Source: Bacteroidota bacterium (GTDB lineage Bacteria; Bacteroidota; Bacteroidia; Bacteroidales; Prolixibacteraceae). Taken from it: a stretch of DNA of 64,000 nt. The notes under the pieces are model-generated. The model was not told the DNA's origin, ran no database searches, and saw only the letters and a program-made list of their open reading frames with translations. The translations under genes were made by a program, and so were the position numbers. The stretch covers positions 1 to 64,000 of the forward strand of contig JAUYMU010000112.1 of assembly GCA_030698405.1 (NCBI GenBank). The letters are read 5' to 3'. Shown one piece after another: positions 20,130 to 60,684 of this stretch (its first letter is position 1; the number at the start of each line of letters is the position of its first letter).

Positions 20130-21896
20130 ATGAACGCTAAACATATATTAATCACCTTTCTGTCTCTTATTTGGGGAGTACAGATTGGATTTTCTCAATC
20201 GTCAACTGTTCGAAATCATACTGTTCTGTTGCCCGAAAGCGTAAAGGCAATTGCAGCTAAATGCAATCAGCCTTTGCTCGGCAAGAACACGTTTGTGTTC
20301 GATCCGGCAATGGATATGAAGGAAGTTCAAACATTGATCGATTCGATACATGCCGGTCAGGTCTATCCCCAGAATGAATTTTCCAAAAACCGTTATGCGC
20401 TACTGTTTAAGCCCGGAACCTATCATTTGGATGTCAGGGTTGGCTACTACATGCACATTATGGGTTTGGGAAATTCTCCCGAAGATGTGGTGATTGTCGG
20501 GGCAGTCAGGTCAAACTCAGATCAGGGTGGACATGTGCTGTGCAATTTCTGGCGTACAGCCGAGAATTTAACGATTGTTCCTGCGAAGGATTCAACCAAT
20601 ACCTGGGCAGTTTCGCAGGCGGCGCCCTTGCGCCGTGTTTATGTGAAGGGAAATCTGAAGTTATTCGAGGGCGCTTCCAGCGGAGGTTTTATGGCCGATT
20701 GTAAAATTGAAGGAACAGTATTTTCCGGCTCGCAACAACAATGGTTAACGCGAAATTCAGTTTTCGAAAAATGGGACGGCGGCGTTTGGAATATGATGTA
20801 TGTTGGAGTAGTCAATGCCCCGCAGGAGAATTGGCCGGAAAAGCCGGTTACCACCATCAAAGAAACACCTGAAGTGCGCGAAAAACCATATTGGACTTAT
20901 TCAGGAGGAAAATTTATTTTGAGAATTCCAGCGTTGAAGAAAAATTCAACCGGTGTTGACTGGAACGATCAGAGTAACGAAAAGACAATTTCGATGGATG
21001 ACTTTTATATCGCCAAACCTGAAGTTGACAATGCAAAATCGATTAATAAAGCCTTAAATAAAGGGAAACACATACTTTTTACTCCCGGGATATATTCGTT
21101 AAGCGAAAGCCTGAAGGTTAAACATTCAGGAACAGTTGTAATGGGAATTGGAATGACTACGCTGGTTCCGGAAAATGGGAATAAAGCGATTGAAGTTTCC
21201 GATATTGATGGGGTGACGATTTCCAGTTTGCTGATTGATGCAGCAAAAATTCATTCTGAAACACTCATGCAAGTTGGAAAACCCGGATCGAAAAAAAATC
21301 ATCAGTCAAATCCTACCTTTCTATTTGATGTGTTTTTCAGGGTTGGCGGCCCTCACGAAGGATCTGCGACACGTTGTTTGGTGATCAACAGTAACAATGT
21401 TTACGCAGATCATGCCTGGATTTGGCGGGCCGACCATGGTACCGGTGTTGGCTGGGACAAGAATAAATGTGCCAATGGATTGATTGTGAACGGAGATAAT
21501 GTTACAATTTATGGACTTTTCAATGAGCATTTTCAGGAATACCAGACCATTTGGAATGGAGACAGTGGTCGGGTATATTTTTACCAAAGTGAAATGCCTT
21601 ATGATCCACCAACTGTTGATTCATGGAAACATGGAGATACGTTTGGATTTGCGTCATACAAAGTGGCCGATCATGTAAAAAGTCACAAGGCTTGGGGAAT
21701 AGGTATTTACAATGTTTTTTACGATGCCCCGGTCATAGTCGATCAGGCGATTGAAACACCGCAAGCAGTTGAAAATGGATTTTACCATAAAGTCATTTTT
21801 TGGCTGAACGGAAATAAGGAAAGTGTCGTGAAGAGCATCATCAACGGTAAAGGTGGAAGCGTTAACAGTTCGAATAGAAAAGCAACTATGAAGTAA
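20130..21896 (+). CDS. Exported right-handed beta-helix protein (pectate-lyase-like fold), function unknown
   Basis: The 588-residue protein has a signal peptide (ending IGFSQ) and two stretches typical of paired beta-helices. The first begins YALLFKPGTYHLDVRVGYY near residue 90. The second begins HILFTPGIYSLSESLKVKHS near residue 315. This bi-helix plan is like GH55 exo-beta-1,3-glucanases and other pectate-lyase-superfamily proteins. Relatives in databases are often given the misleading name adenylyl cyclase (recollection). No cyclase motif is visible. Two GH16 enzymes follow, so a role on beta-glucan is plausible but inferred. It lies 15 bp after the GH27 gene. Confidence 0.7.
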   Translation: MNAKHILITFLSLIWGVQIGFSQSSTVRNHTVLLPESVKAIAAKCNQPLLGKNTFVFDPAMDMKEVQTLIDSIHAGQVYPQNEFSKNRYALLFKPGTYHLDVRVGYYMHIMGLGNSPEDVVIVGAVRSNSDQGGHVLCNFWRTAENLTIVPAKDSTNTWAVSQAAPLRRVYVKGNLKLFEGASSGGFMADCKIEGTVFSGSQQQWLTRNSVFEKWDGGVWNMMYVGVVNAPQENWPEKPVTTIKETPEVREKPYWTYSGGKFILRIPALKKNSTGVDWNDQSNEKTISMDDFYIAKPEVDNAKSINKALNKGKHILFTPGIYSLSESLKVKHSGTVVMGIGMTTLVPENGNKAIEVSDIDGVTISSLLIDAAKIHSETLMQVGKPGSKKNHQSNPTFLFDVFFRVGGPHEGSATRCLVINSNNVYADHAWIWRADHGTGVGWDKNKCANGLIVNGDNVTIYGLFNEHFQEYQTIWNGDSGRVYFYQSEMPYDPPTVDSWKHGDTFGFASYKVADHVKSHKAWGIGIYNVFYDAPVIVDQAIETPQAVENGFYHKVIFWLNGNKESVVKSIINGKGGSVNSSNRKATMK

Positions 21897-22028
21897 TATA
21901 ATGATTAACAACGAAATAACAAACCTCCTTTTCAAATAAATACTGCTACAAATGGTTCCTTTTTGGTTAAAAGAAAGAGGATCTGAAGTATATCAACTAT
22001 ATTTATAAAAACAATAAAAACAAATAAA

Positions 22029-23573
22029 ATGCAAAAAACAATATTTTTAACTTTCTCCGTTTTCCTCTTTCTAACTTTCATCCAGCCATCAGCGGCTCAA
22101 ACTAATAGTGCAATAAATCAGGGTAATTTCCTGAAAAATGGTGTTGTGGCACACCGTGGGGCCTGGAAAAAAGACGGATTACCTCAGAACTCGATCGCTT
22201 CGTTAAAAAAGGCAATTAGTCTGGAAGTTGCCGGTTCTGAATTCGATGTACAACTAACCGCCGACGGAGTTTTGGTACTAAACCACGACCCGGTTTATGA
22301 AGGGCTGCACATCGAAAAAACAAAATATTCGGGTCTGAAAAAATATCCGTTGAAAAATGGGGAAGTTCTTCCAACCCTCGATAATTATCTGAAAATTGGA
22401 ATGAAACAGCAGAAAACCCGGTTAATTCTTGAATTAAAACCGTCGCAGATCAGCAAGGAACGATCATTGCTTCTGGCTCAGAAAGCTGTTGCGAAAGTAA
22501 ATAAAATACGTGCACAACCCTGGATAACCTACATCAGTTTCGATTATGACATTCTGAAAGAAATAGTTCGTTTAGATCCGTCGGCAAAAACGATGTACCT
22601 CAACGGTAATGTTTCTCCGGAACAGCTAAAAGCGGATGGAATATCCGGTGCAGATTATCATTTCAACGTTTTCAAAAAAGACGAACAATGGATTGGCAAT
22701 GCCCGGAAAGCAGGAATTGAAACAAATGTATGGACGGTAAATGATCCTTTACTGATGGATTATTTTCTTGCCCGCGACATTGATTATATCACTACCGACG
22801 AACCTGAAATCCTGCTAAAAAAAGTAGCTGAAAAGGAACAAAATCCAAATTGGAAACTGGTTTGGTTTGATGAATTTAATACCACCGGCCTGCCTGATTC
22901 GACCAAATGGAACTACGACACCCGTGGAAATACGTATGGTTGGGGAAACAACGAAGCGCAATGGTACAACGTTGCCAATCTGAAAAATACACAGCTGACC
23001 GATGGCACTCTAAAAATCATCGCCCGTCAGGAACCGACTTCAGGCAAAAAATATTCCTCCGGAAGGTTGACCACCAAAAGCAAAGGTGACTGGAAATACG
23101 GCAAGTTTGAAGTCAGGGCAAAACTACCTTCAGGAAAAGGTACATGGCCTGCCATCTGGATGCTGTCGTCGGACAATACCTATGGAGGATGGCCTAAAAG
23201 CGGCGAAATTGACATTATGGAACACGTTGGGTACGATCCCGATTCGGTGCATTCGACGGTTCACACCCAAAAATACAATCATACAAAAGGCACCCAGGTA
23301 GGAAAGGCAATTGCGGTGAAAACTGCTATCTCCCAATTTCATGTTTATACCACCGAATGGGACGAAAATGAAATCAGAAGTTATGTGGATGGAATTCTCT
23401 ATTTTTCCTTTCAGAAAGAGGACAGCGGATTCGATGCATGGCCTTTTGACCAACCGTTTCATTTAATCCTGAACCTTGCAATTGGCGGCGGTTGGGGTGG
23501 AAAGCACGGGATTGATGACAGCAAATTTCCACATACGCTTGAAGTTGATTACGTAAGAGTTTATCAGAAATAG
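22029..23573 (+). CDS. Fusion of glycerophosphodiesterase (GDPD) and GH16 glucanase domains
   Basis: This 514-residue exported protein joins two enzymes. After a signal peptide (about 1-24), residues 36-275 form a GDPD barrel with an intact active site: H42 and R43 in AHRG, E71 and D73 in EFDV, H86 in NHDP, and the later LILELKP and ITTDEPE. Residues 280-514 form a GH16 beta-jelly roll with the signature E393-I-D395-I-M-E398, which is used by laminarinase-type endo-beta-glucanases. GDPD enzymes cleave glycerophosphodiester bonds. Joined to a glucanase this suggests a glucan carrying phosphodiester substituents (inference). The stop is followed by a weak hairpin and then the promoter-like site for the next gene. 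Confidence 0.93.
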   Translation: MQKTIFLTFSVFLFLTFIQPSAAQTNSAINQGNFLKNGVVAHRGAWKKDGLPQNSIASLKKAISLEVAGSEFDVQLTADGVLVLNHDPVYEGLHIEKTKYSGLKKYPLKNGEVLPTLDNYLKIGMKQQKTRLILELKPSQISKERSLLLAQKAVAKVNKIRAQPWITYISFDYDILKEIVRLDPSAKTMYLNGNVSPEQLKADGISGADYHFNVFKKDEQWIGNARKAGIETNVWTVNDPLLMDYFLARDIDYITTDEPEILLKKVAEKEQNPNWKLVWFDEFNTTGLPDSTKWNYDTRGNTYGWGNNEAQWYNVANLKNTQLTDGTLKIIARQEPTSGKKYSSGRLTTKSKGDWKYGKFEVRAKLPSGKGTWPAIWMLSSDNTYGGWPKSGEIDIMEHVGYDPDSVHSTVHTQKYNHTKGTQVGKAIAVKTAISQFHVYTTEWDENEIRSYVDGILYFSFQKEDSGFDAWPFDQPFHLILNLAIGGGWGGKHGIDDSKFPHTLEVDYVRVYQK

Positions 23574-23576
23574 TAA

Positions 23577-23616
23577 AATCTTGAATTGATCTTTACAAAA
23601 GATTTATTTTTTCGGT
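23577..23616 (+). terminator. Weak hairpin/terminator after the GDPD-GH16 gene
   Basis: A 7-bp stem, AAATCTT with AAGATTT, is followed by the T-rich TATTTTTTC. The loop is long (about 17 bases). It may end part of the transcription before the promoter-like site at 23619. Confidence 0.4.
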
Positions 23617-23618
23617 AT

Positions 23619-23649
23619 GTTGTCAACGTGGGTTTTCTTCCTAAATTTG
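23619..23649 (+). promoter_or_regulatory. Bacteroidota-type promoter for the second GH16 gene
   Basis: GTTG at 23619-23622 is followed after 19 bp by TAAATTTG at 23642-23649. This fits the Bacteroidota sigma-ABfr consensus TTTG-N19-21-TAnnTTTG. Transcription should start near 23655, giving a leader of about 17 bases to the ATG at 23672. Confidence 0.6.
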
Positions 23650-23671
23650 GAAGACTAAACCGAACAGCAAG

Positions 23672-25396
23672 ATGAAGAAATTAATCCTTTCCATTTTTAT
23701 TCTTTGCTTTGCAATTCAAGCCTTTCCGCAGAAATACGTTAAAGTTTGGAGCGATGAATTTAATAAACCCGGCTTGCCCGACAGCACAAAATGGGATTAC
23801 GAAGTCGGCAAAATCCGCAATGCCGAATTACAGTATTACACCTATAAACGTAAGGAGAATGCACGTATTCAGGATACCGTTCTGATACTTGAAGCACGCA
23901 AAGAAGCATTTCAGGGGGCAAGCTATACCTCGGCAAGTTTAATATCGAGGTACAAAGGCGACTGGCTTTATGGCAAGTTTGAAATCAGTGCCAAAGTACC
24001 AACAGGCAATGGCACCTGGCCAGCCATCTGGATGATGCCGACCGACGATGAATATGGAGGATGGCCCAAAAGCGGCGAAATCGATATTATGGAATACGTG
24101 GGGATGAATCCGAACAATTTGTACTATACTGCCCATTTTGAAGGAACAAATGGTTCAGGGCATCAGAGTTCGGGTACGCAAACTACTTATAACCAACCTT
24201 ACACCAGGTTTATCACTTTTACATTTATATGGTCGCCAACCAAACTGGAATGGTATGCTGACGGAGTAAAAAAATACACCTACAACAAACCCTCAAACGA
24301 CCAGCGAGTATGGCCTTTCAATAAAATGTTTTACATGATCCTGAACCTGGCTTATGGTGGAAGTTGGGGCGATCAAAAAGGACATGACGACACAAAATTA
24401 CCGCACAAGTTTTTAATCGATTATGTAAGAGTATATCAACTTCAGGAAACAGAAGGACCATTTTCACTTACCATTGAGCCATCAACCGGCGGAACTGTTG
24501 AAGTATCGCCCCAACTGGATTCTTATCCTGAAGGAACAATGGTTACCCTGACTGCCAAACCTGAAAACGGTTACGAATTTGATAAATGGCTGCATATGGG
24601 TTCCGCCAATCCGATGACAATCGAAGTTTCAAAAAACATCACTTTGATACCGGTTTTCAAAAAAAAAAATGAACTGATCCAAAACGGTGATTTCAGTTCA
24701 GGATTAAAATACTGGGGCAATCTTTATTTTTACAGCGCAGGCAACAAAGCCACAGCATCAGTTGTTGACGGGGTTTATGTTCTTAATGTAAGCAGTCCGG
24801 GCACGGCCAACTGGCATATCGTTGACCAACAGCTGAATATTCCTTTTATCAATGCTGCAAATTACAAAATGACGTTCGATGCCTGGTCTGACAATCCTGG
24901 CATTGCAGATGTTTTTATTTCGAAAAACTACGATGACTATGGAAATTACTACTCAACAACCAGAAGTATTACGGGAGTAAAACAGACATTCATCTGGACA
25001 GTAAAAATGAATAAGCCAACCGATTACAATTGCCGGTTTGGTTTTGGATTTGGTAAGTTTACAGGCAATGTTTACCTCGATAATGTGAGCGTCGAAAAAC
25101 AGGTTCCAACCGGAAAAAAAGTTTTGACAGGTATTAAAAATGAAGAATTTAGCCTTTTCCCGAACCCAACTTCCGGCGAAATTACAATTTCAGGTAATTC
25201 AGTCAGTTCGCCGGTTACCCTGATTTTATACAATCTTCAGGGACAATTGATATCAACGATTCTGAACAATCAGTATCTCACAAAGGGAAATACAGTTACA
25301 TTTAACCTAAGAAATGAAGTTGCAAGCCCCGGGATTTATCTGCTCCGGTTGACAAACAAGGATAATTCATTTACCCGAAAAGTAATACTTAACTAA
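23672..25396 (+). CDS. Secreted GH16 endo-beta-glucanase with carbohydrate-binding and T9SS domains
   Basis: The 574-residue protein has a signal peptide (ending QAFPQ). A GH16 domain lies at about 20-260 with the signature E136-I-D138-I-M-E141. An InlB/FIVAR-like beta domain follows at about 265-325 (EGTMVTLTAKPENGYEFDKW). A CBM4/9-like jelly roll lies at about 330-490 (ELIQNGDFSSGLKYWG). The T9SS sorting domain comes last (about 500-574, FSLFPNPTSGEITI). GH16 enzymes of this type cut beta-1,3 or mixed-linkage glucans such as laminarin (family knowledge). T9SS delivery means it acts at or outside the cell surface, while the GDPD-GH16 fusion next door lacks such a domain and may act in the periplasm. 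Confidence 0.94.
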   Translation: MKKLILSIFILCFAIQAFPQKYVKVWSDEFNKPGLPDSTKWDYEVGKIRNAELQYYTYKRKENARIQDTVLILEARKEAFQGASYTSASLISRYKGDWLYGKFEISAKVPTGNGTWPAIWMMPTDDEYGGWPKSGEIDIMEYVGMNPNNLYYTAHFEGTNGSGHQSSGTQTTYNQPYTRFITFTFIWSPTKLEWYADGVKKYTYNKPSNDQRVWPFNKMFYMILNLAYGGSWGDQKGHDDTKLPHKFLIDYVRVYQLQETEGPFSLTIEPSTGGTVEVSPQLDSYPEGTMVTLTAKPENGYEFDKWLHMGSANPMTIEVSKNITLIPVFKKKNELIQNGDFSSGLKYWGNLYFYSAGNKATASVVDGVYVLNVSSPGTANWHIVDQQLNIPFINAANYKMTFDAWSDNPGIADVFISKNYDDYGNYYSTTRSITGVKQTFIWTVKMNKPTDYNCRFGFGFGKFTGNVYLDNVSVEKQVPTGKKVLTGIKNEEFSLFPNPTSGEITISGNSVSSPVTLILYNLQGQLISTILNNQYLTKGNTVTFNLRNEVASPGIYLLRLTNKDNSFTRKVILN

Positions 25397-29770: not shown

Positions 29771-30427
29771 ATGAAAACGAAAATGATTGGTCTTATTCTT
29801 TGCCTGCTTTTAACCGCTACGATTGTTCCGATCCAATTAAAAGCGCAGGCTTTAAAGGAAAATCCTGTACTCGATGCACAAGTGAAAAAATTTCTTTCCG
29901 AGAATTCCGGGCGATGGCATGATATGAATGTTCCGACGAATGACGCGCAGTTACTTTACGACCTCGTTATAAAAGGTAAATACACAAGTGCGCTTGAGAT
30001 TGGCACTTCAACCGGTCTTTCAGGAATTTATATTGCCTGGGCGCTCAGCAAAACCGGAGGGAAGCTGATTACCATTGACATTGATGAAGACAGGCACAAG
30101 ATTGCACTCCGTAATTTTAAGGAAGCCGGTCTTTCGGAATACATTGACGCCCGGCTTGCCGATGCCCATACACTTGTGAAAGAACTTAAAGGACCGTTTG
30201 ATTTTGTATTCAGCGATGCAGATAAAAACTGGTATAAAAACTATTTTATTGACGTTGACCCCAAACTTAAAGTCGGCGGTTGTTACACCACCCACAATAT
30301 TTCGGAAAGAAGACGAATGGGTGAGGGTGATTACCTGGAGTACATCAGAAGCCTTAAAAACTATGAGACCACTTTGAATTCAGCAGGTGGCGGTTTACTG
30401 ATAAGCTACAAAAGAGCAGAAAAATAA
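29771..30427 (+). CDS. Class I SAM-dependent O-methyltransferase with signal peptide
   Basis: This 218-residue protein has a signal-like N-terminus (MKTKMIGLILCLLLTATIVP then QLKAQ). The O-methyltransferase family 3 core follows: motif I ALEIGTSTGLSGIYIAWAL (about 76-94), motif II KLITIDIDEDR, and VFSDADKNWYKNYF. The fold is complete. SAM is cytoplasmic, so an exported methyltransferase is odd. Either the leader is an uncleaved anchor facing the cytoplasm, or the fold now binds something else. It follows the isomerase by 96 bp and precedes an APC permease by 11 bp, and may be co-transcribed with the latter. Confidence 0.75.
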   Translation: MKTKMIGLILCLLLTATIVPIQLKAQALKENPVLDAQVKKFLSENSGRWHDMNVPTNDAQLLYDLVIKGKYTSALEIGTSTGLSGIYIAWALSKTGGKLITIDIDEDRHKIALRNFKEAGLSEYIDARLADAHTLVKELKGPFDFVFSDADKNWYKNYFIDVDPKLKVGGCYTTHNISERRRMGEGDYLEYIRSLKNYETTLNSAGGGLLISYKRAEK

Positions 30428-34540: not shown

Positions 34541-35725
34541 ATGTTTGCTGACAGGTACATTCAAAATAACATTGTTTATCCGTCCTTCATCAAAGAAGAA
34601 GCCTCTCCAGCCCTCTCGATGATTGTAATGATTCCGTGCCTGAACGAACCTGAAATAATCAGAACACTAGAATCGGTATGGGCATGCGAGCCGGTGGATT
34701 CGTTTTGTGAAGTGCTAATCGTAGTCAACGATTCGGAAAACAGCACTGAACCGGTGAAAGCAATCAATCAGCAAACTTTCGAAAAATTGCTTGCATGGAA
34801 GCAAACGAACGACCGCCAAAATCTGGTACTTCATCCGTTTTATGCTCCTTCAATACAGGCAAAGTTTGCAGGCGCCGGCATGGCACGAAAAATTGGCATG
34901 GACGAGGCGATCCGCCGTTTCAACGCGGTTAACCGCCCTGAAGGTGTGATTGTTTCTCTTGATGCCGACTGTCTGGTTTCGCGCAACTACCTGCAAAGGA
35001 TCGTACAGGTTTTTTCGCAAAGCAAATCGTGTTTTGCAGCTACCATTAACTTCAGGCATCGTTTTGAAGAGATGGAAGATGCGAGACAGGAAGCGGGAAT
35101 CAGAATGTATGAGGATTACCTCCATTACTACAAACAAGCGCTGGATTTCGCCGGATTTCCGAATTCAATTTATACCATCGGATCGGCGTTTGCAGTGAGG
35201 GCAGACACATACGTAAAACAAGGCGGCATGAACCGCAGGCAAGCAGGCGAAGACTTTTACTTCTTGCACAAACTCACCAAATTGGGTCGTTTGGCTGAAA
35301 TTACGGATGCATTTGTTTATCCTTCAGGACGTGTTTCCGACAGGGTTCCATTTGGAACCGGAGCAGCGATGACCAAATGGAAGAACTTTACCGAGGATTT
35401 GGCACTGACTTATCGTTTTGATGCTTTTCTGGATCTGAAGCGATTGTTTGACCATGTTGATAGTTTTTACAATGTCAGTTCAAATCGTTACGCTGAAATC
35501 CTAACCTCTTTGCCGCAAAGCATTCAGGAATATTTAAATGCCGTTTCATTTGAAGAAAAACTTGCAGAAATTAATCGGAATAGCGCAACTCCTGAATCTT
35601 TCAGGAAACGATTCTTTCAGGTTTTTGATGCTTTTTATGTCCTGAAATTTCTGAACATGGCCCATGAAAGTCACTATCAACAGCAGAATTTAGCGGAAGC
35701 GATCCTGCAACTTCAGACTTCCTGA
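34541..35725 (+). CDS. Family 2 glycosyltransferase, 3' end fused to an insertion sequence
   Basis: The 394-residue protein is a GT2-type transferase with PCLNEPEIIRTLESVWACEP near 30 and VVNDSENST. It has an acceptor-side SLDADCLVSRNYL (the DxD motif, D150/D152 region) and GEDFYFLHKL, the conserved ED. There is no signal peptide or membrane segment. It transfers a sugar from a nucleotide donor; the acceptor is unknown. The last four codons (LQTS) and the stop are encoded within the left inverted repeat of the insertion sequence that begins at 35712. The original C-terminus has therefore been replaced; how many residues were lost cannot be seen. Confidence 0.85.
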   Translation: MFADRYIQNNIVYPSFIKEEASPALSMIVMIPCLNEPEIIRTLESVWACEPVDSFCEVLIVVNDSENSTEPVKAINQQTFEKLLAWKQTNDRQNLVLHPFYAPSIQAKFAGAGMARKIGMDEAIRRFNAVNRPEGVIVSLDADCLVSRNYLQRIVQVFSQSKSCFAATINFRHRFEEMEDARQEAGIRMYEDYLHYYKQALDFAGFPNSIYTIGSAFAVRADTYVKQGGMNRRQAGEDFYFLHKLTKLGRLAEITDAFVYPSGRVSDRVPFGTGAAMTKWKNFTEDLALTYRFDAFLDLKRLFDHVDSFYNVSSNRYAEILTSLPQSIQEYLNAVSFEEKLAEINRNSATPESFRKRFFQVFDAFYVLKFLNMAHESHYQQQNLAEAILQLQTS

Positions 35726-35815
35726 CCCCATCCTGATAACTACATGAAAATAAATTAGATCGTAAATGGGTTGTCGTAAATCAAACTGTCGTAAATTTGG
35801 TAAAAAGATATCCAT

Positions 35816-36268
35816 ATGCAAATGCAACTGCCCATATTCCCAGAAAGTACAAAGCTTATAAACAGCAGTGTTGGTTTTTTCAAGAAGGATGAATTCATCT
35901 ATTATCTTCATAATGGGTCCCCGATTTTTTGCCACCATGTCGATAGTACTAACAATTACCGTTACATACTTGCCAATCTGGTGGAAAGCAAATTATGCCA
36001 TGCTTCAGAGATAAGCAGAGCTTTGGGTATCAGCCAAAGGAATGTTGAGCGTTATGCTCAAAAGCTCAGGAAACAGGGGATAGAAAGTTTTTTTAACCAA
36101 GTTGACCACCGGGGGGAATGTTATAAAATGACTGAACCGTTAATGCTGCAAGCGCAGCAACTATTGGATGATGGAAAGTCACAGTTGACCACGGCCAAGA
36201 CCTTAGGGGTGAGCGAAAGTTGCATACGGTATCATCTCAAAAGTGGCACCTTAAAAAAAAAACACTAA
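35816..36268 (+). CDS. Transposase upstream frame (orfA, DNA-binding)
   Basis: This 150-residue frame shows two helix-turn-helix segments, EISRALGISQRNVERYAQKL near 65-85 and AKTLGVSESCIRYHLKSG near 125-145, which are expected to bind the inverted ends. It ends in a run of lysines encoded by the A10 tract, then CAC TAA. A -1 shift on the A10 run (36253-36262) continues into the second frame as KKK-TLTQN. This would give a full-length transposase of about 750 residues. Confidence 0.85.
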   Translation: MQMQLPIFPESTKLINSSVGFFKKDEFIYYLHNGSPIFCHHVDSTNNYRYILANLVESKLCHASEISRALGISQRNVERYAQKLRKQGIESFFNQVDHRGECYKMTEPLMLQAQQLLDDGKSQLTTAKTLGVSESCIRYHLKSGTLKKKH

Positions 36269-38031
36269 CTCAAAACCCTGAAGCCCGCCAAGGCAGTACC
36301 CCCGGAGAAAGGAATGTTATTGATTTTGAGGCATCAATGGCAATAGGGACAGGAGCCACACGTGTTGAAGAACGGATTGCCGCCAGCCGGGGAGAATTGA
36401 AACAGACACCAATCAGGTTTGAGAATTGCCAAAGCCTTGAACATGCCGGGGTTTTGCTAATGTTGCCAGCCCTTTTGGCACAAGGGCTGATGGATTACAA
36501 GCCCCACTATCAAGAGATAGAAGATGTATATTACGACCTTGACACTACCATTCTTTTTTTGTCCTTCATGTACCTTTGCCGTATCCATAATCCGGAACAA
36601 CTACGACACATCAGCCCGGGCGAGTTTGGGAAGTTAATGGGTCTGGATCGCATCCCCGAAGCCAGATGTTTAAGGGCCCGGCTAAAACAAATCATCCAGC
36701 AAAACAAGTCAGAACAATGGGGCATGACCCAGGCCAGCAAGTGGGTAAAGGCAGAAGGGACAACAATTTATTATATCGACGGACATCCCAAAGTATATTG
36801 TGGAGATCAGGCAAACCTTGGCAAAAAGCACATATCCAGGTTGAAATTATGCATGCCGGCCATCATGGAGTTTTGGGTAAACAACCATCAGGGGATGCCT
36901 TATTTTGTGGTCACTGGCGAAGTAAACGAAAAGCTTGGGGAAATGCTTTCAACCCAAATCATACCACGGCTAAAGCAGCAGGTAGCCCTTCCGGTAAGCG
37001 AACAGGATCTGTTGGATGATCCTGAACTGCCCCGTTTCACATTAACATTTGACCGCGAAGGATATAGCCCCAAAGCATTTAAAAGCTATTGGGAAAACGA
37101 CCGGATTGCCGTGCTGACCTATAATAAGAACGTAAAAGACAAGTGGCCTGAAAGTGAATTCCATCAATACTCCATCCCCGTTGATGGCAATGAAATAAAA
37201 ATGGAATTGGCCGAACGTGAAATAGAACTGGAAGGCATGAAAATACGCGAAGTGCGAAAAAAAACAGAAGACTCCCACCAAACCAGCATATTGACCACCA
37301 ACCAAAAGTTGGACCTAACCTGGATAGCCATTTATATGTTCGCCCGCTGGTGCCAGGAAAATTTTTTCAAATACCTCCGGCAAGAATACGATATCGACCG
37401 TATGATGTATTATCTTGTAAAACAAATAAATGAAGGGGTGATGGTAGTCAACCCAATATACAGCAAACTAACCCAAGCCATCAAAAAAATACGCGAAAAG
37501 ATAAACCGCAGACATGCCCAACTATTTTTGTTAAATGAAGAAAATGTAAATAGCGACTTGGAAACTGCCCCGCAGTACCTAAAAATGCAAACAAAACAAA
37601 TCAGCCAGATCAACCAATTGAAAGACGAAGAACAAAAATTACTGGAGGCACGCAAACAGCAGCCTTATAAAATAGAAGTGAAAAACATGCCTGAAAATAC
37701 AAGGTATACAAAATTGGACATGGAGGGCAAACTGTTTCAAAACATCATAAAAATGATATGCTACCGGGCAGAAACAACAGTCGCAGCGTTGCTTAATAGC
37801 GAGATTTACAAAAAACAAGAAGAAATCCGTTCACTGGTAAAAAGCATCATAAAGTCCAGAGGTGACATAGTTCCAGATTACCAGCAACGAACATTAACAA
37901 TAAAAATCTACACACTATCAAACCCAAGGGATAATCGTGCTTTAGAAAAATTATGTGAACTGCTAACCGATTCTGAAACAATTTATCCGGGTACAGAACT
38001 TAGGTTGATTTATAAATTAGCGACAAATTAA
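36220..38031 (+). CDS. Transposase downstream frame (orfB, DDE-type catalytic part)
   Basis: The 603-residue frame has no ATG at its open end (it opens with TTG), so it is probably translated only as the C-terminal part of a frameshifted orfA-orfB product. It carries the pattern of a DDE transposase: an Asp in IYYIDGHPKVYCGD near 190, an Asp in LTFDREGYSPKAF, and a Glu in ARWCQENFFKYL near 380. Spacing fits IS4/IS1634-like DDE proteins, but I cannot place it in a named family. The C-terminal third is long and helical, with many Gln and Lys. Confidence 0.75.
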   Translation: MHTVSSQKWHLKKKTLTQNPEARQGSTPGERNVIDFEASMAIGTGATRVEERIAASRGELKQTPIRFENCQSLEHAGVLLMLPALLAQGLMDYKPHYQEIEDVYYDLDTTILFLSFMYLCRIHNPEQLRHISPGEFGKLMGLDRIPEARCLRARLKQIIQQNKSEQWGMTQASKWVKAEGTTIYYIDGHPKVYCGDQANLGKKHISRLKLCMPAIMEFWVNNHQGMPYFVVTGEVNEKLGEMLSTQIIPRLKQQVALPVSEQDLLDDPELPRFTLTFDREGYSPKAFKSYWENDRIAVLTYNKNVKDKWPESEFHQYSIPVDGNEIKMELAEREIELEGMKIREVRKKTEDSHQTSILTTNQKLDLTWIAIYMFARWCQENFFKYLRQEYDIDRMMYYLVKQINEGVMVVNPIYSKLTQAIKKIREKINRRHAQLFLLNEENVNSDLETAPQYLKMQTKQISQINQLKDEEQKLLEARKQQPYKIEVKNMPENTRYTKLDMEGKLFQNIIKMICYRAETTVAALLNSEIYKKQEEIRSLVKSIIKSRGDIVPDYQQRTLTIKIYTLSNPRDNRALEKLCELLTDSETIYPGTELRLIYKLATN

Positions 38032-38105
38032 TGTGCGAGAGGTCAGGAAGTCTGAATTTAATGTGAACAAGGGTTACCTTTTGCCGTATTTGGGAATATA
38101 TTAAA

Positions 38106-38412
38106 ACTGCTTATCCCTTTTAGTCAAGTGCCAGTTAGAAAACCAATGTCAAAGCAATTCCTCTGATCAAAAACATGTTGAAATCGACAAACTATTTGCA
38201 CTGGTAGCAGTTTTTAGATAGAAAACCCAACAAAATTCAGTAAAGCCATGAATCAGTGTTTCTTTTGACCAATAAATCATTGCTCTTTCTTCAATGCATG
38301 TCTATACATACAAATAAATCAACAATTGAATTAACTTTTCATAGATTCCAAAACTTGATCAAGCGTACCAAATTAAGTTGTTAGTTCAGCTTGACCGAAA
38401 GGGATAAGCAGT
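38106..38412. mobile_element. MITE-like element, 307 bp, with 8-bp target duplication
   Basis: The 12-bp ends are exact inverted repeats, ACTGCTTATCCC and GGGATAAGCAGT. They extend imperfectly to 22 bp (TTTTAGTCAAG against CTTGACCGAAA). A perfect 8-bp direct repeat ATATTAAA flanks it (38098-38105 and 38413-38420). The duplicate region near 40000 lacks the element, giving an apparent empty site. It has no coding capacity. The end sequence matches the 132-bp element at 13569. Confidence 0.88.
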
Positions 38413-38508
38413 ATATTAAATTAGGTGTTGTTGCATTTTTCTAAAATATAAAAGGATTCCACCTCCCAGAGATGAAATCCTTTTACTAACTATTTTAAGA
38501 TAAATTTT

Positions 38509-38700
38509 CTACCGGTTAAACTTCAACCTTTTGCCCTGAATTCCTGAAACAACATTTCCATCAGCATAAACCAAGTTGCCATTTACAAAAGTATGGGTTA
38601 CCTGGTGCGAGAATTCTGTTCCATAGAAAGGCGACCAGCCGCACTTGTAAAGTATATTTTCAGGAGAAACCACCCACGATTGTGCCGGATCAACCAACAC
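38509..38700 (-). pseudogene. 3' fragment of dihydroorotase gene
   Basis: This encodes the last 63 residues of the dihydroorotase found at 40091-41434 ([20 protein letters not shown] ... [11 protein letters not shown]), identical except one residue (Y for D in SPFYGTEF). It lacks the catalytic part. An ATG from the repeat boundary exists, but there is no sign that this fragment is a functional gene. Confidence 0.85.
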
Positions 38701-38767
38701 CCATTTGCGCTAAACGTACTATTCTGCGTTATCGCCCAACAAACTCTGTTAACTTGATTTGTTGAAC

Positions 38768-38803
38768 AAGGATTCCATCTCTTTTTGAAAGATGGAATTC
38801 CTT
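38768..38803 (-). terminator. Hairpin after the T9SS protein gene
   Basis: The stem AAGGATTCCATC pairs with GATGGAATTCCTT (one bulged base), 11 bp downstream of the minus-strand stop at 38814. It has no long T-run, so it may be a structured 3' end rather than a strict terminator. Confidence 0.55.
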
Positions 38804-38813
38804 TACTATTGAG

Positions 38814-39692
38814 TCATTCTTTGATGATTACCTCTTCGGAATACTTCCCTGAGTCTGAAATCAAACGCAAAATATAAATTCCATTTCGGAGTGAGCTCGT
38901 GTCAACCCGATGCAGATTGTTTCCAGCATCCAGACACTCTTTTTTTACCAGTTCACCTTTTAAGGAGTACAATTCGAGGGTATAATTTTCATCAATGTTC
39001 GTGGTGAGTTGAACAAATAATTCGCCCGAAACCGGGTTGGGGTATACTTTAAATCCTTTTGTTGGGTTTTGAATATTTATTGATGACGTGTAAAAACAGG
39101 TATTGTATTCAGGGTTTTGATAAACGAGTTGTCCGTTTTCTGTATAGCAGAGAAGAAAAGGAAGTGCACCAATGCTCCCATTAATATTCGATAAAAAGTA
39201 GTTTCTCTGACCCACTCCTTCAATCCACACTGTACGATGAAATTCATCACCCGAAACAGGGTTGAGATACCAATGTTTTCGCAGTTTACCTCCCCAGTTG
39301 AAGATTAGAACAGAGTCAACTTTGAAGGTGATGCCTTGAGTAATAAAAATGTCGTTTTTCACTAATGAAAAATCGTACATTAATTGTTCCTTATGGTAAT
39401 ATAAATCTCGCTTGAATATTTTTAAACCGTCCGTTTCTCTCCATAAACCATATATTTTCCAGTTTGTTAAAGATTCATCGGTGGTAGTATAGAGCTTCGC
39501 ATAGGTAGTGTCGTTAATGATTGAATCTCCCTGAAACTTATATGCATCATTTCTATGTCCACAACAAGGTTCGGAATAAATTTTCGCTCCAATTCTCCAG
39601 ATTTTGTTTTCTGAAATAAGATTTTGAGAAACCAGGTTACTGGAAAATGAAATACAGATAGCGATGAAAAAATACTTCATAATTGGTTTCAT
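38814..39692 (-). CDS. T9SS-secreted protein of unknown function
   Basis: I do not recognise the main domain of this 292-residue protein. It has a signal peptide (MKYFFIAICISFSSNLVSQ) and a Cys/Gly-containing segment (EPCCGHRND). A beta-rich region with TTDES, GLWRETDGLKIF and WYLNPVSGDEFHRTVW follows. The C-terminal T9SS sorting domain (KVYPNPVSGELFVQL near 218 and NGIYILRLISDSGK) shows it is secreted. It lies between two copies of the pyrC 3' region and shares the pyrC strand, so it may be transcribed from the pyrC promoter. An alternative ATG at 39680 is in frame. Confidence 0.75.
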   Translation of the reverse strand: MKPIMKYFFIAICISFSSNLVSQNLISENKIWRIGAKIYSEPCCGHRNDAYKFQGDSIINDTTYAKLYTTTDESLTNWKIYGLWRETDGLKIFKRDLYYHKEQLMYDFSLVKNDIFITQGITFKVDSVLIFNWGGKLRKHWYLNPVSGDEFHRTVWIEGVGQRNYFLSNINGSIGALPFLLCYTENGQLVYQNPEYNTCFYTSSINIQNPTKGFKVYPNPVSGELFVQLTTNIDENYTLELYSLKGELVKKECLDAGNNLHRVDTSSLRNGIYILRLISDSGKYSEEVIIKE

Positions 39693-39889
39693 ATTTTAAA
39701 AATTAAATTGCTGAATAAACCATAACTCCATTATGAGTTGTAAGTGTGTTTTGTTTATAACTGCTGTAAGCCCACTTTACCAAAGTTGCCAAATCTTCCC
39801 CTGAACAAGCGTTCTTCCTGATAATCTTGAAACTGGCAACCAAATTATGTGTAAATGTATAAAGTCGAATTATGAATAGCAAATTAAAT

Positions 39890-39902
39890 CCCCCCCCCCC
39901 CC
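39890..39902. repeat. Poly-C homopolymer, 13 bases
   Basis: Thirteen consecutive C residues lie in an AT-rich gap, about 200 bp upstream of the minus-strand T9SS gene. Runs of this length are prone to slippage in replication and in sequencing, so its exact length is uncertain. It could modulate expression by changing promoter spacing (speculation). Confidence 0.7.
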
Positions 39903-39965
39903 TGTATAACTACCAGTATGTGCTTGGTATATAGCGATATGGTAGAATTTATTTTAGAACATACA

Positions 39966-40284
39966 TGCAAGAGGGTAACCTTTTCCCTTTTCCCGGAATT
40001 AATTACTCAGGGCTTGTTGCATGAAAAACAAAAAGGATTCCACCTCCCCAGAGATGAAATCCTTTTACGTTCTATTTTAAGATAAATTTTCTACCGGTTA
40101 AACTTCAACCTTTTGCCCTGAATTCCTGAAACAACATTTCCATCAGCATAAACCAAGTTGCCATTTACAAAAGTATGGGTTACCTGGTGCGAGAATTCTG
40201 TTCCATCGAAGGGCGACCAGCCGCACTTGTAAAGTATATTTTCAGGAGAAACCACCCACGATTGCGCCGGATCAACCAATACCA
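39966..40284. repeat. Original copy of the duplicated pyrC 3' region
   Basis: This is the counterpart of 38066-38700. It includes the last 64 codons of dihydroorotase, its stop, the terminator hairpin and about 65 bp beyond. The MITE present in the other copy is absent here, so this copy shows the uninterrupted sequence. Confidence 0.85.
40026..40066 (-). terminator. Rho-independent terminator of pyrC
   Basis: The minus-strand stem AAAAGGATT pairs with AATCCTTTT, followed by T-rich sequence, 25-65 bp after the pyrC stop. A second copy of the same hairpin lies in the duplicated region near 38450-38486. Confidence 0.75.
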
Positions 40285-41434
40285 AATCAGCATAATATCC
40301 TTCGCGGATGTATCCACGACGATCGATTCGGAACAGGTCTGCCGGGGCGTGGCACATTTTTTCAATCACTTTTTCGACCGGAATCATTCCTTTCCGGCTC
40401 ATTTCGAGCATGGCTACCAGCGAATGCTGCACCAGCGGCCCACCGGCTGGCGCTTTGAAATACGAATGTTCTTTTTCCTGAAGGGTGTGCGGGGCATGAT
40501 CGGTAGCCACCACATCAATTTTATCGTCAAGTAAAGCTTTCCAAAGTGCAGCTTTATCTGCAGGCGATTTAATAGCAGGGTTCCATTTTATAAAGTTACC
40601 ATGTGCAATGTAGTCGCTTTCGTCGAACCACAGATGGTGCACGCAAACTTCAGCAGTAATGAGCTTTTCAGCAACTGGTCCCGAAGCAAAAAGTTTCATT
40701 TCATCGGCAGTTGAAATGTGCAAAACATGCAGCCTTGTTCCATATTTAGAAGCCAGCGCAACAGCTTTTGACGACGATTTGAAACAGGCTTCGGCGCTTC
40801 TGATTTTAGGATGCGCAGAAATTGGCACATAATCGCCGTATTTTTCGCGGTAAATGGTAGTATTCAGGATAATTGTCGGTTCGTCTTCGCAATGCGTAGC
40901 GACCAGCAATTTGGTATTTTTAAATATTTCTGAAAGCACTTCTTCATTGTCAACCAGCATATTTCCGGTTGACGAACCCATGAATATTTTTATTCCGCAA
41001 ACATCTGAACCATTTGTTTTCAGCACTTCGTCCAGATTGTCGTTGGTGGCGCCCATGTAAAACGAATAGTTGGCAGCCGAAACTTCAGCAGCGCGCTGGT
41101 ATTTCAGTTCGAGTATTTCTTGGGTTACTGCCTGCGGATTGGTGTTGGGCATTTCCATGTACGAAGTCACTCCACCGGCAACGGCAGCCCTCGATTCGGT
41201 AGCAATTTCGCCTTTGTGGGTCAGCCCCGGTTCGCGAAAATGAACCTGATCGTCGATGGCTCCCGGAACCAGGTATTTGCCATTTGCATCGATCACTTTT
41301 GCTCCCAGAGCGAATTCAGCAGGAATATCTTCACCGGAGAAAACTTTGGCAATCAATTCTCCATCAATCAGCACAGCTCCGCTAAAAATCTGTCCTTCAT
41401 TGATGATCCGGGCATTTTTAATGAGTGTCTTCAT
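40091..41434 (-). CDS. pyrC: Dihydroorotase
   Basis: This 447-residue zinc-dependent amidohydrolase catalyses the third step of pyrimidine synthesis, cyclising carbamoyl aspartate to dihydroorotate. It shows the DHOase motif region DDQVHFREPG near 60, where the first ligand position that is His in many family members (DxHVHxR) is Gln. I recall the same DDQ form in other Bacteroidota enzymes. Further motifs are VGGVTSYMEMPNTNPQ (approximate), EVCVHHLWFDESDY and the metal-binding VATDHAPHT. The start ATG is at 41434. It follows a glycosyltransferase gene by 12 bp on the same strand, so both form an operon. Its 3' end is duplicated at 38427-38700. Confidence 0.94.
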   Translation of the reverse strand: MKTLIKNARIINEGQIFSGAVLIDGELIAKVFSGEDIPAEFALGAKVIDANGKYLVPGAIDDQVHFREPGLTHKGEIATESRAAVAGGVTSYMEMPNTNPQAVTQEILELKYQRAAEVSAANYSFYMGATNDNLDEVLKTNGSDVCGIKIFMGSSTGNMLVDNEEVLSEIFKNTKLLVATHCEDEPTIILNTTIYREKYGDYVPISAHPKIRSAEACFKSSSKAVALASKYGTRLHVLHISTADEMKLFASGPVAEKLITAEVCVHHLWFDESDYIAHGNFIKWNPAIKSPADKAALWKALLDDKIDVVATDHAPHTLQEKEHSYFKAPAGGPLVQHSLVAMLEMSRKGMIPVEKVIEKMCHAPADLFRIDRRGYIREGYYADLVLVDPAQSWVVSPENILYKCGWSPFDGTEFSHQVTHTFVNGNLVYADGNVVSGIQGKRLKFNR

Positions 41435-58363: not shown

Positions 58364-59860
58364 ATGAAAGACAAATTTAGCAGAAGATCATTTTTGGCAA
58401 CGACTGCAACTGTTGCGGCCGGAGTGACTATTCTTCCAAGCAATGTTATTGCTGGTATGGGTCACAAAGCACCCAGTGACAAATTGAATATTGCCGGTGT
58501 TGGAGTTGGTGGTATGGGTTTCGCTAACCTGAAAAACCTTGCCTCTGAAAATATCATCGGACTTTGCGATGTTGACTGGAAATATACCGGCGGAAACGGT
58601 GTGTTTGATAAATTTCCAGGTGCCAAAAAGTACAAAGACTGGAGAGTTATGTACGACGAACTGGGCAAATCAATTGATGGTGTAGTGATTGCAACTGCCG
58701 ACCACACGCACGCCATTACAGCAGCTCATGCCATCACCATGGGAAAACATGTTTATCTGCAAAAACCTTTGACCCACTCGGTTTACGAATCACGCCTGCT
58801 CACCAAACTGGCCGACAAATACAAAGTAGCCACTCAAATGGGTAATCAGGGATCTTCTCAGGAAGGTGTTAACCTAACCTGCGAATGGCTTGCCAACGGC
58901 GAAATTGGTGAAGTAACAAAAGTTGAGGCATTTACCGACCGTCCGATCTGGCCACAAGGCTTAAACACTCCAAAACAAGGTCAATGGGTTCCTGAAACTT
59001 TGGATTGGGATTTATTTACCGGTCCGGCAAAAATGCGTCCGTATAACGAAATTTTTCACCCATGGAACTGGCGCGGCTGGTGGGATTACGGTACTGGTGC
59101 ATTGGGCGACATGGCCTGCCATATCTTGCATCCCGTATTTGTTGGTCTCGAACTGGGTTATCCAACCAAAGCACAGGGTAATTCAACCTTATTACTTCAG
59201 GATTGCGCACCAACAGCACAGTCGGTTAAATTAACCTTCCCGGCCCGTGCGCCAAAACGCGCATGGAAAGGATCGAAAAAAGGAGCTCAGTTACCACAGG
59301 TTGAAGTATTCTGGTACGATGGTGGTATCAAGCAAATGCTTCCTGAAGGATGGCCGGCTGGCAAAAACCCGAACGATGCGGGTGGTGGCGTAATTTTCCA
59401 CGGAACAAAGGACAAACTTATTTGCGGATGTTACGGTGTTAATCCTTGGTTGTTATCAGGCCGCAAACCTGAATCTCCAAAATTCCGTCGCCGTGTTGAA
59501 GCTTCACACGAAATGGATTGGGCTCGTGCAGCCAAAGAAACTCCTGAAAGTCGCGTGCAAACTGCCTCTAATTTCAGCGAAGCCGGACCATTCAACGAAA
59601 TGGTTGTAATGGGCGTTTTGGCCGTTCGTTTACAAAACCTGAACAAAGAATTGTTGTGGGACGGACCAAACATGAAATTTACCAACATCACTGCTGACGA
59701 AAAAATCAGAATCGTTATCGAAGATGGGTTCAAAATTCATGACGGTCACCCAACTTTCAACAAAACTTACACTGATCCGGTTCCTGCAACTGAATTTGCT
59801 GCCGAACTGATCAAGCATACTTACCGCAAACCATGGAGTCTTCCTGATATGCCGGCATAG
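58364..59860 (+). CDS. Tat-exported Gfo/Idh/MocA-family oxidoreductase
   Basis: The 498-residue protein begins with a twin-arginine signal (FSRRSFLATTATVAAGVTILPS). It then shows a Rossmann NAD(P)-binding start (LNIAGVGVGGMGFANL) and the family motif GKHVYLQKPLTHSVYE around 128-145. A C-terminal sheet domain ends in YRKPWSLPDMPA. Such exported enzymes in Bacteroidota act on sugars or inositols, usually with a tightly bound cofactor (family knowledge). The last 79 codons and the stop are repeated downstream in 60715-60956. The gene itself is intact. Confidence 0.92.
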   Translation: MKDKFSRRSFLATTATVAAGVTILPSNVIAGMGHKAPSDKLNIAGVGVGGMGFANLKNLASENIIGLCDVDWKYTGGNGVFDKFPGAKKYKDWRVMYDELGKSIDGVVIATADHTHAITAAHAITMGKHVYLQKPLTHSVYESRLLTKLADKYKVATQMGNQGSSQEGVNLTCEWLANGEIGEVTKVEAFTDRPIWPQGLNTPKQGQWVPETLDWDLFTGPAKMRPYNEIFHPWNWRGWWDYGTGALGDMACHILHPVFVGLELGYPTKAQGNSTLLLQDCAPTAQSVKLTFPARAPKRAWKGSKKGAQLPQVEVFWYDGGIKQMLPEGWPAGKNPNDAGGGVIFHGTKDKLICGCYGVNPWLLSGRKPESPKFRRRVEASHEMDWARAAKETPESRVQTASNFSEAGPFNEMVVMGVLAVRLQNLNKELLWDGPNMKFTNITADEKIRIVIEDGFKIHDGHPTFNKTYTDPVPATEFAAELIKHTYRKPWSLPDMPA

Positions 59861-59866
59861 ATGTTT
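59625..59866. repeat. 242-bp direct repeat, copy 1 (3' end of the oxidoreductase gene)
   Basis: This copy is the last 79 codons of the oxidoreductase, its stop and six bases beyond. It differs from the copy at 60715-60956 at three bases (TTGTTG versus TTGATG, GGGTTC versus GGTTTC, CTGCAACTG versus CTGCGACTG). The interval 59867-60714 (848 bp) between the copies carries a small gene pair. Confidence 0.9.
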
Positions 59867-60005: not shown

Positions 60006-60509
60006 GTTTCAACCCTCAGGGTTATTGTCTTATTTTGCTCATCAATTGAAAATTCAATTTCAGGAGATAGTTTTAAAACGGAGGTTTCCTTTATTGACAA
60101 GGAAGATATTAAAAAGGTTACGAAAGCTAAAGGTTGGCTGTTCAATTGGAAAGAAGAATTTGAAAAGCCGGATAGAGATGTTTACAAATTGACAATAAGC
60201 AACAATCCTACTATTATCCAGGGATTGGTAAGTTTAACAGAAAGGAAAGACCATGTATACATGCACCTGATTGAGAGTGCCCCGTTTAATTTGGGAAAAG
60301 AAAAGGTGTACATTGGAGTACCCGGAAATTTGGTTGCATTTGCATGTAGATTATCTTTCCACAGGGGGTTTGAGGGATACGTTTCGTTTACAGCAAAAAC
60401 CCAATTGATAGAACATTACAAAACAACATTAGGTGCTGAAGAAGTAGGTGGACACTTGATGATAATTAATACAATTTCAGCACTGAAATTGATTGATAAA
60501 TATTTTTAA
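60006..60509 (+). CDS. GNAT-like protein of unknown function, start codon not visible
   Basis: The frame is open from 60006 and encodes a sequence like small Bacteroidota proteins of GNAT-like character. It reads GDSFKTEVSFIDKEDIKK, then KGWLFNWKEEF, NNPTIIQGLVSLT, DHVYMHLIESAPFNLGK, YIGVPGNLVAFACRLSF, VSFTAKTQLIEHYK and LIDKYF. I recall similar proteins beside a tiny partner, which is also present here. No ATG, GTG or TTG opens the conserved N-terminal part; the only TTG (60189) lies inside the domain. So the 5' end is damaged, or an unusual start is used. It lies between the two 242-bp repeat copies. Confidence 0.6.
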   Translation, partial: VSTLRVIVLFCSSIENSISGDSFKTEVSFIDKEDIKKVTKAKGWLFNWKEEFEKPDRDVYKLTISNNPTIIQGLVSLTERKDHVYMHLIESAPFNLGKEKVYIGVPGNLVAFACRLSFHRGFEGYVSFTAKTQLIEHYKTTLGAEEVGGHLMIINTISALKLIDKYF

Positions 60510-60519
60510 AATTAATGCG

Positions 60520-60684
60520 ATGGCACATATAAAAGAGCAAACTGAGCCTGATTTCTTTGTTGATCCAAAACCTTTGACAGAGTCCGGGCAAAAACGAATA
60601 AGTGATTATATCAAGGCTGATAAAGCAAAAAGGGCGAAACTCAAACCATCAAAGAAGAAAGGCACTTATGTCCAATCGAATTAG
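60520..60684 (+). CDS. Small 54-residue partner protein of the GNAT-like gene
   Basis: This charged protein reads MAHIKEQTEPDFFVDPKP followed by a Lys-rich helical end (KADKAKRAKLKPSKKKGTY). It begins 10 bp after the GNAT-like stop. It resembles tiny partners of such genes in other Bacteroidota (recollection), which supports a two-gene module, perhaps toxin-antitoxin-like; its role is not established. Its end lies 30 bp before repeat copy 2. Confidence 0.65.
   Translation: MAHIKEQTEPDFFVDPKPLTESGQKRISDYIKADKAKRAKLKPSKKKGTYVQSN

Follow-up and report, generated by a model that had tools for sequence, protein, structure and literature searches.

Homology-facilitated illegitimate recombination is known from Acinetobacter, Pseudomonas stutzeri and Streptococcus pneumoniae. 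It has also been described in E. coli conjugation (PMC3240628). The loci analysed here resemble it in having one homologous anchor, one non-homologous joint and foreign DNA beside a conserved gene, although it is known mainly as low-frequency laboratory events, whereas here it would be recurrent and genome-wide, with copies of gene tails placed around toxin-antitoxin, defence and secreted-protein cargo. In T6SS effector displacement arrays, anchored insertions push old 3' ends downstream, and homology-facilitated illegitimate recombination has been proposed for them (Kirchberger 2017, PMC5361080), and the displacement of rhs C-terminal ends (Jackson 2009, PMC2935791) likewise offers a close precedent at toxin loci. 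Both systems resemble the present one in building arrays through repeated insertion at a conserved anchor gene. Both differ from it in that the toxin gene or its end is exchanged; in the present loci core or unrelated genes serve as anchors, these keep their product and the cargo is unrelated to them. None of the host genes found here encodes a toxin or delivery protein whose 3' end is exchanged, the arrangement by which polymorphic-toxin displacement is recognised.

The minimal mobile elements of Neisseria are varied small cargoes located between conserved genes, which move by homologous recombination and have no recombinase. The likeness lies in small cargoes that differ by strain and are moved without a recombinase, but the flanking genes of these elements are not known to keep an additional copy of their 3' end, and the tail copy is the distinctive feature of the loci described here. 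Long variable direct repeats of 8-514 bp are typical of IS1634/IS1549 (PMC2266710), and here, too, an insert of 1-3 kb lies between direct repeats that are long (up to about 500 bp) and variable; in contrast to these elements, however, the cargo has no transposase or inverted ends, the repeats are gene tails only and the copies appear to be diverged alleles. Being host-gene tails, the repeats are also unlike the attC sites of an integron cassette array. In a literature search of limited extent, no account of this arrangement around toxin-antitoxin, defence and secreted cargo at core genes came up; the type of recombination and the arrays at toxin loci are already known.

Two loci with duplicated gene ends

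The window (the whole stretch of DNA analysed, 64,000 nucleotides) contains two loci of this kind, at pyrC and at an oxidoreductase gene, with the following features:

35714-38054, plus strand: insertion sequence with a Transposase_29 ORF at 36220-38031 (PF21804, E 9.3e-132)
38107-38411, no strand assigned: inverted-repeat (MITE-like) element, 305 bp, inside the distal flank
38412-38434, minus strand: pyrC 3' flank joined to the distal copy, resuming at 38055-38106 beyond the inverted-repeat element
38443-38701, minus strand: distal pyrC 3'-end copy with terminator, a dead gene fragment
38766-38811, minus strand: terminator of the pyrC cargo, a AAGGATTCCATCTC hairpin that recurs in many genomes of the genus
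38814-39692, minus strand: cargo, intact ORF of a 292-aa secreted protein with a C-terminal T9SS sorting domain (Por_Secre_tail, E 9.5e-16)
39890-39902, minus strand: 13-nt poly-G tract in the minus-strand reading, about 200 bp upstream of the cargo ORF
40025-40283, minus strand: proximal pyrC 3'-end copy with terminator, 96.2% identical to the distal copy
40091-41434, minus strand: pyrC (dihydroorotase), intact host gene, 447 aa (ORF; Amidohydro_1)
58364-59860, plus strand: GFO/IDH/MocA oxidoreductase gene, the second host
59625-59866, plus strand: proximal oxidoreductase 3'-end copy
60189-60684, plus strand: cargo, two small ORFs of 106+ aa and 54-63 aa
60715-60956, plus strand: distal oxidoreductase 3'-end copy, then a divergent terminator

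The first-pass annotation had read both loci as host gene, cargo and duplicated 3' end in the same order, a reading borne out by the present comparison. At pyrC, the two copies, each made up of the last ~193 coding bases plus the terminator, lie in direct orientation and are 96.2% identical over 260 bp, with the intact T9SS-secreted gene between them on the pyrC strand, and at the oxidoreductase locus the copies are 98.8% identical over 242 bp. The two small ORFs of the latter cargo have no confident Pfam match, and a homologue of this cargo sits in a toxin-antitoxin array of the sister genome G006. On the other hand, the sequence between 38066 and the distal copy, which lay within the range first given for the locus, is not duplicated pyrC coding sequence; native flank split by the inverted-repeat element is found there, followed by the Transposase_29 insertion sequence. 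The pyrC homology extends beyond the terminator into the 3' flank (GCAACAA...AAAAGGTNACCC), and this native flank is split by the 305-bp element, which has CTGCTTATCCCTTT ends and a target duplication of about 9 bp (TATATTAAA); the insertion sequence, with ends CAGACTTCCTGACC and GGTCAGGAAGTCTG, truncates the region past the distal flank.

Several further observations concern the same stretch. The terminator-like hairpin AAGGATTCCATCTC...GATGGAATTCCTTT (38766-38811) is found in G001 as a 175-bp-spaced series (C154:11243-11801). G runs of at least nine bases occur just twice in 1.92 Mb of the genome, at 39890-39902 of the window and at position 30010 of G000:C109, both about 200 bp upstream of an ORF for a surface or secreted protein and with surrounding sequence common to both, and phase variation is possible for this pair. 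A 131-bp tandem repeat (97%) lies at 1422-1683 of the window, with part of it inverted 1.3 kb away (121-174).

Orthologues of pyrC are present throughout the genus, and in ten genus genomes the neighbouring gene is a conserved lipoprotein gene, representing the ancestral state, so the cargo slot is derived. Beside pyrC, G014 and G002 have other sequence with the same flank, together with a poly-G run in G014 and an interrupted one in G002.

Recurrence in the genome and in sister species

The first-pass annotation had predicted further cases in the genome, and had taken two chance duplications as the reading to adopt if there were neither other cases nor empty sites. Six further host genes were found in the part searched, more tail copies exist in sister species, and empty sites occur in G010 and G002 at the oxidoreductase gene and in ten genomes at pyrC; the recurrence is not chance. 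The scan covered 1.92 Mb of 5.49 Mb (35%), on contigs partly picked since earlier searches had matched them, and its counts are therefore not for close extrapolation; the scan also took in 0.8 Mb of G011, a sister genome in a single contig. In 1.57 Mb of the genome, repeat pairs no more than 6 kb apart (at least 80 bp long and at least 80% identical) were direct in 30 cases vs 2 inverted, a ratio of 39:2 being obtained with G011 added and looser cut-offs. Within the 1.92 Mb, the tail-cargo-tail order was found at eight host genes, namely pyrC, the oxidoreductase gene, valS, pgi, a transglutaminase gene, a glycosidase-like (GH) gene, a lipoprotein gene and a helicase gene. Extra copies span the last 90-330 bases of the host gene and no 5' end with a copy upstream was found in the same 1.92 Mb, which places the duplications at gene tails only (8:0; two-sided P = 0.008 under equal odds).

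The host-gene proteins are intact and the cargo is unrelated to its hosts (pyrC, pgi, valS, tdh, the oxidoreductase gene and others). Toxin-antitoxin or defence-like cargo is present in six of the eight cases and secreted or surface genes in two. The window loci have the T9SS protein (pyrC) and an uncharacterised two-gene pair (oxidoreductase), while the other six have an AAA ATPase with weak DUF4276, MNT-HEPN (twice), DarT-macro domain, AbiEii with an upstream partner, and secreted/lipoprotein genes with a LytTR-like ORF. That the cargo shares the strand of its host had been put forward as part of the pattern; this is true for both window loci and valS (3/8), but it fails as a rule because the cargo opposes the host strand in the remaining 5/8. 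Outside the genus, about 0.9 Mb of sequence surrounding pyrC in other Bacteroidota yielded no clear tail-cargo-tail case. Small toxin-antitoxin genes at G000:C4 2467-5021 and G000:C6 17519-18970 are bordered by intergenic repeats of 110-180 bp, which are not obviously tails of a nearby gene. The valS gene itself (G000:C10, ORF 21872-24958, minus strand) has an in-frame DUF559 (nuclease-like) domain (PF04480, E 1.7e-31) inside its synthetase domain (PF00133).

Sister species display the same order with other contents. At the oxidoreductase locus of G007, the host gene is followed by a DUF1016/YhcG nuclease as cargo and then by a tail copy of 174 bp, beyond which lies the neighbouring paralogue, and G014 and G012 possess the cargo and cargo-tail junction of G007 with 21-25 bp of tail left and a different downstream neighbour; one junction is common to three species, with two different neighbours downstream. 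Recombination via the tail copy is the simplest way to account for this, descent followed by deletion being a possible alternative. In the window genome both cargo and junction differ from those of G007. Extra pgi tail copies were located, from coordinates, in G002, G021, G001, G011 and G004, with start points in at least three classes (query 1112, 1239 and 1264). At tdh, three tail copies in G010 part different cargoes, and G014 has one such cargo.

Among the arrays, that downstream of the tdh-like zinc-dehydrogenase gene (L279/L280, G010:C7; L276, G014:C385) contains a Gp49-HTH toxin-antitoxin pair, a RhuM gene and one further gene, with tail/terminator copies between them. The G006 array (L048, G006:C55) has repeats of ~170-330 bp at 1-174, 1053-1378 and 2283-2609, which part toxin-antitoxin modules (MNT-HEPN, the pair of the window oxidoreductase locus and a ParE-like pair). 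A group II intron origin for the G006 repeats was considered and dismissed, with no Rfam match to any family.

Divergence of the copies

The distal copies have lost the 5' part of the gene and are dead fragments. When the eight host genes are pooled, 81 of 113 coding differences between copies fall at codon position 3, and 77 of the 99 changed codons are synonymous (22 non-synonymous). The synonymous/non-synonymous counts are 12/0 for the lipoprotein gene, 12/1 for pgi, 15/2 for transglutaminase and 15/3 for valS, the GH case being an exception (7/10), and the window loci, with 2/1 and 3/1, have too few changes to show import there. The synonymous excess is significant (P = ~2e-14) against 40% synonymous changes expected under duplication then decay, a value that we assumed for one constrained and one neutral copy. 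That differences are mostly synonymous although the distal copy is dead argues that, in the diverged cases, the copies diverged as working gene ends in separate genomes; simple duplication followed by drift is rejected for these cases on the codon-position pattern. Pooled over the eight hosts, with the limits given for the window loci and the GH case, the copies look like alleles from relatives, and in the older cases allelic divergence appears to precede insertion.

Identity between copies is furthermore mosaic, with 76 identical bases running in a pair that has 32 differences and 41 in a pair that has 22 (permutation P for identical tracts <0.0001 for the lipoprotein gene, 0.006 for pyrC, 0.007 for pgi and 0.03 for transglutaminase). 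Such long identical tracts would be expected where recombination took place. In pgi and the lipoprotein gene, similarity between the copies is greatest at the end with the terminator, a pattern that fits recombination via a pre-existing tail better than a one-sided single event.

Donor-type and recipient-type tracts were sought at pyrC and the oxidoreductase gene. At pyrC, the distal flank is 87.5% identical to G014 vs 72.6% to the proximal flank, and the proximal flank is nearest to G002 (82.0%), each over ~62 bp; flanks that seem to resemble different relatives over this length are modest evidence. Both coding tails have in common bases absent from all relatives compared. Most likely, a second pyrC-cargo allele was imported from a close relative, although copies that are 96% alike with own-lineage bases in common may reflect a recent local duplication.

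Competing explanations and a proposed route

Regarding the joints, one lies within homology, as the host gene reads through its own tail, usually with the terminator, into the cargo, and the other is without homology, as distal copies begin at varied points of the same gene across species. Comparison of the boundaries for a shared end motif, as had been suggested, yielded none: no common motif or attachment core was seen at the junctions inspected, no inverted repeat was found there, the boundaries vary and the cargo strand is not fixed. The position of the junction in one host gene also changes between species (the oxidoreductase gene in this genome vs G007; the pgi classes). The absence of inverted repeats, together with junctions that move between species, argues against transposition and site-specific integration, both already disfavoured. 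Transposition with unusually long target duplications of the IS1634/IS1549 type, the cargoes being non-autonomous elements, has in its favour that long variable duplications are documented (PMC2266710) and that an IS1634-like element in G011 (499-aa DDE transposase) has a 194-bp target duplication, 99.5% identical. That element scored 17 against a null maximum of 12 in the inverted-repeat test, whereas no terminal inverted repeats above the shuffled null were detected on the cargo of eight inserts; duplications confined to gene tails and copies that differ synonymously also make this explanation very improbable. The transposase gene of the G011 element lies within a RhuM/Fic-like gene (G011:C1 ~2281170-2283182; G011a 321170-323182). 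Insertion at gene 3' ends with a restored gene end is typical of tyrosine-recombinase islands. Site-specific integration, in which the tail is the attachment site of an integrase that acts in trans or has since disappeared, would resemble such islands, but it is improbable given that the cargo, 0.8-3 kb in size, showed no recombinase among its ORFs, most of which were scanned against Pfam, that junctions differ by species and that no core motif was seen.

Local duplication, in which the tail was copied within one genome during capture of foreign DNA (by replication slippage, template switching or the repair of a break) and the copies then drifted, accords with the 96-99% likeness of the pyrC and oxidoreductase copies and with the own-lineage bases common to the pyrC copies; it is nevertheless unlikely, because the diverged cases differ mainly synonymously despite the dead copy and because the pyrC flanks match different relatives. 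An assembly artefact or chance repeats might be suspected in a 138-contig assembly, yet the copies are diverged and parted by unique cargo, single-contig G011 also has a pgi tail copy and direct pairs exceed inverted ones 30:2, which leaves this explanation hardly any credence. The first-pass annotation had proposed a specific process, such as template switching or a cassette carrying a target-gene tail; the cassette gains support from the allele-like behaviour of the two copies, which point to different lineages, and template switching within one genome is not supported for the diverged cases. Non-homologous end joining was ruled out, as no Ku is encoded in the genome and the illegitimate step is thus not the classical form of this pathway. 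ComEC is encoded, which is not proof of competence. A DNA-uptake-like terminator repeat, AAGGATTYCAYCTC, was also considered; it occurs just 17 times in this genome with one mismatch allowed and is therefore not a genome-wide uptake signal here.

These cassettes probably originated by recombination between relatives, through homology-facilitated illegitimate recombination and then homologous spread through the tails. DNA from a relative, with the same core gene (or its end) adjoining the cargo, would pair and recombine homologously with the core gene of the recipient, while its other end would join inside the recipient gene tail without homology, giving an intact core gene, the cargo and a leftover tail copy. 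Because the two tail copies would flank the cargo as homology arms, ordinary RecA recombination could transfer it to relatives or stack it into arrays, and the tail copies would later decay through deletion. We infer that DNA was taken up, that one end joined illegitimately, that tails are used again as homology arms and that the pyrC locus arose by the same route. The ends of core genes thus appear to offer landing sites to cargo with neither a transposase nor an integrase of its own.

More tentatively, core-gene 3' ends might constitute a recombinase-free cassette system in which tails serve as portable homology arms, permitting movement of toxin-antitoxin, defence and surface genes between species and the building of arrays, and in which addictive cargo would guard the direct repeats against loss by RecA. 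Bacterial chromosomes contain many small toxin-antitoxin and defence modules that have no visible mobility gene, and a scar in the form of an extra, allele-diverged end of the neighbouring gene would reveal how and from whom such modules came, and could be searched for automatically. It would also provide a testable reason for the persistence of the cargo, since cargo between direct repeats should often be lost through them if it does not punish its own loss.
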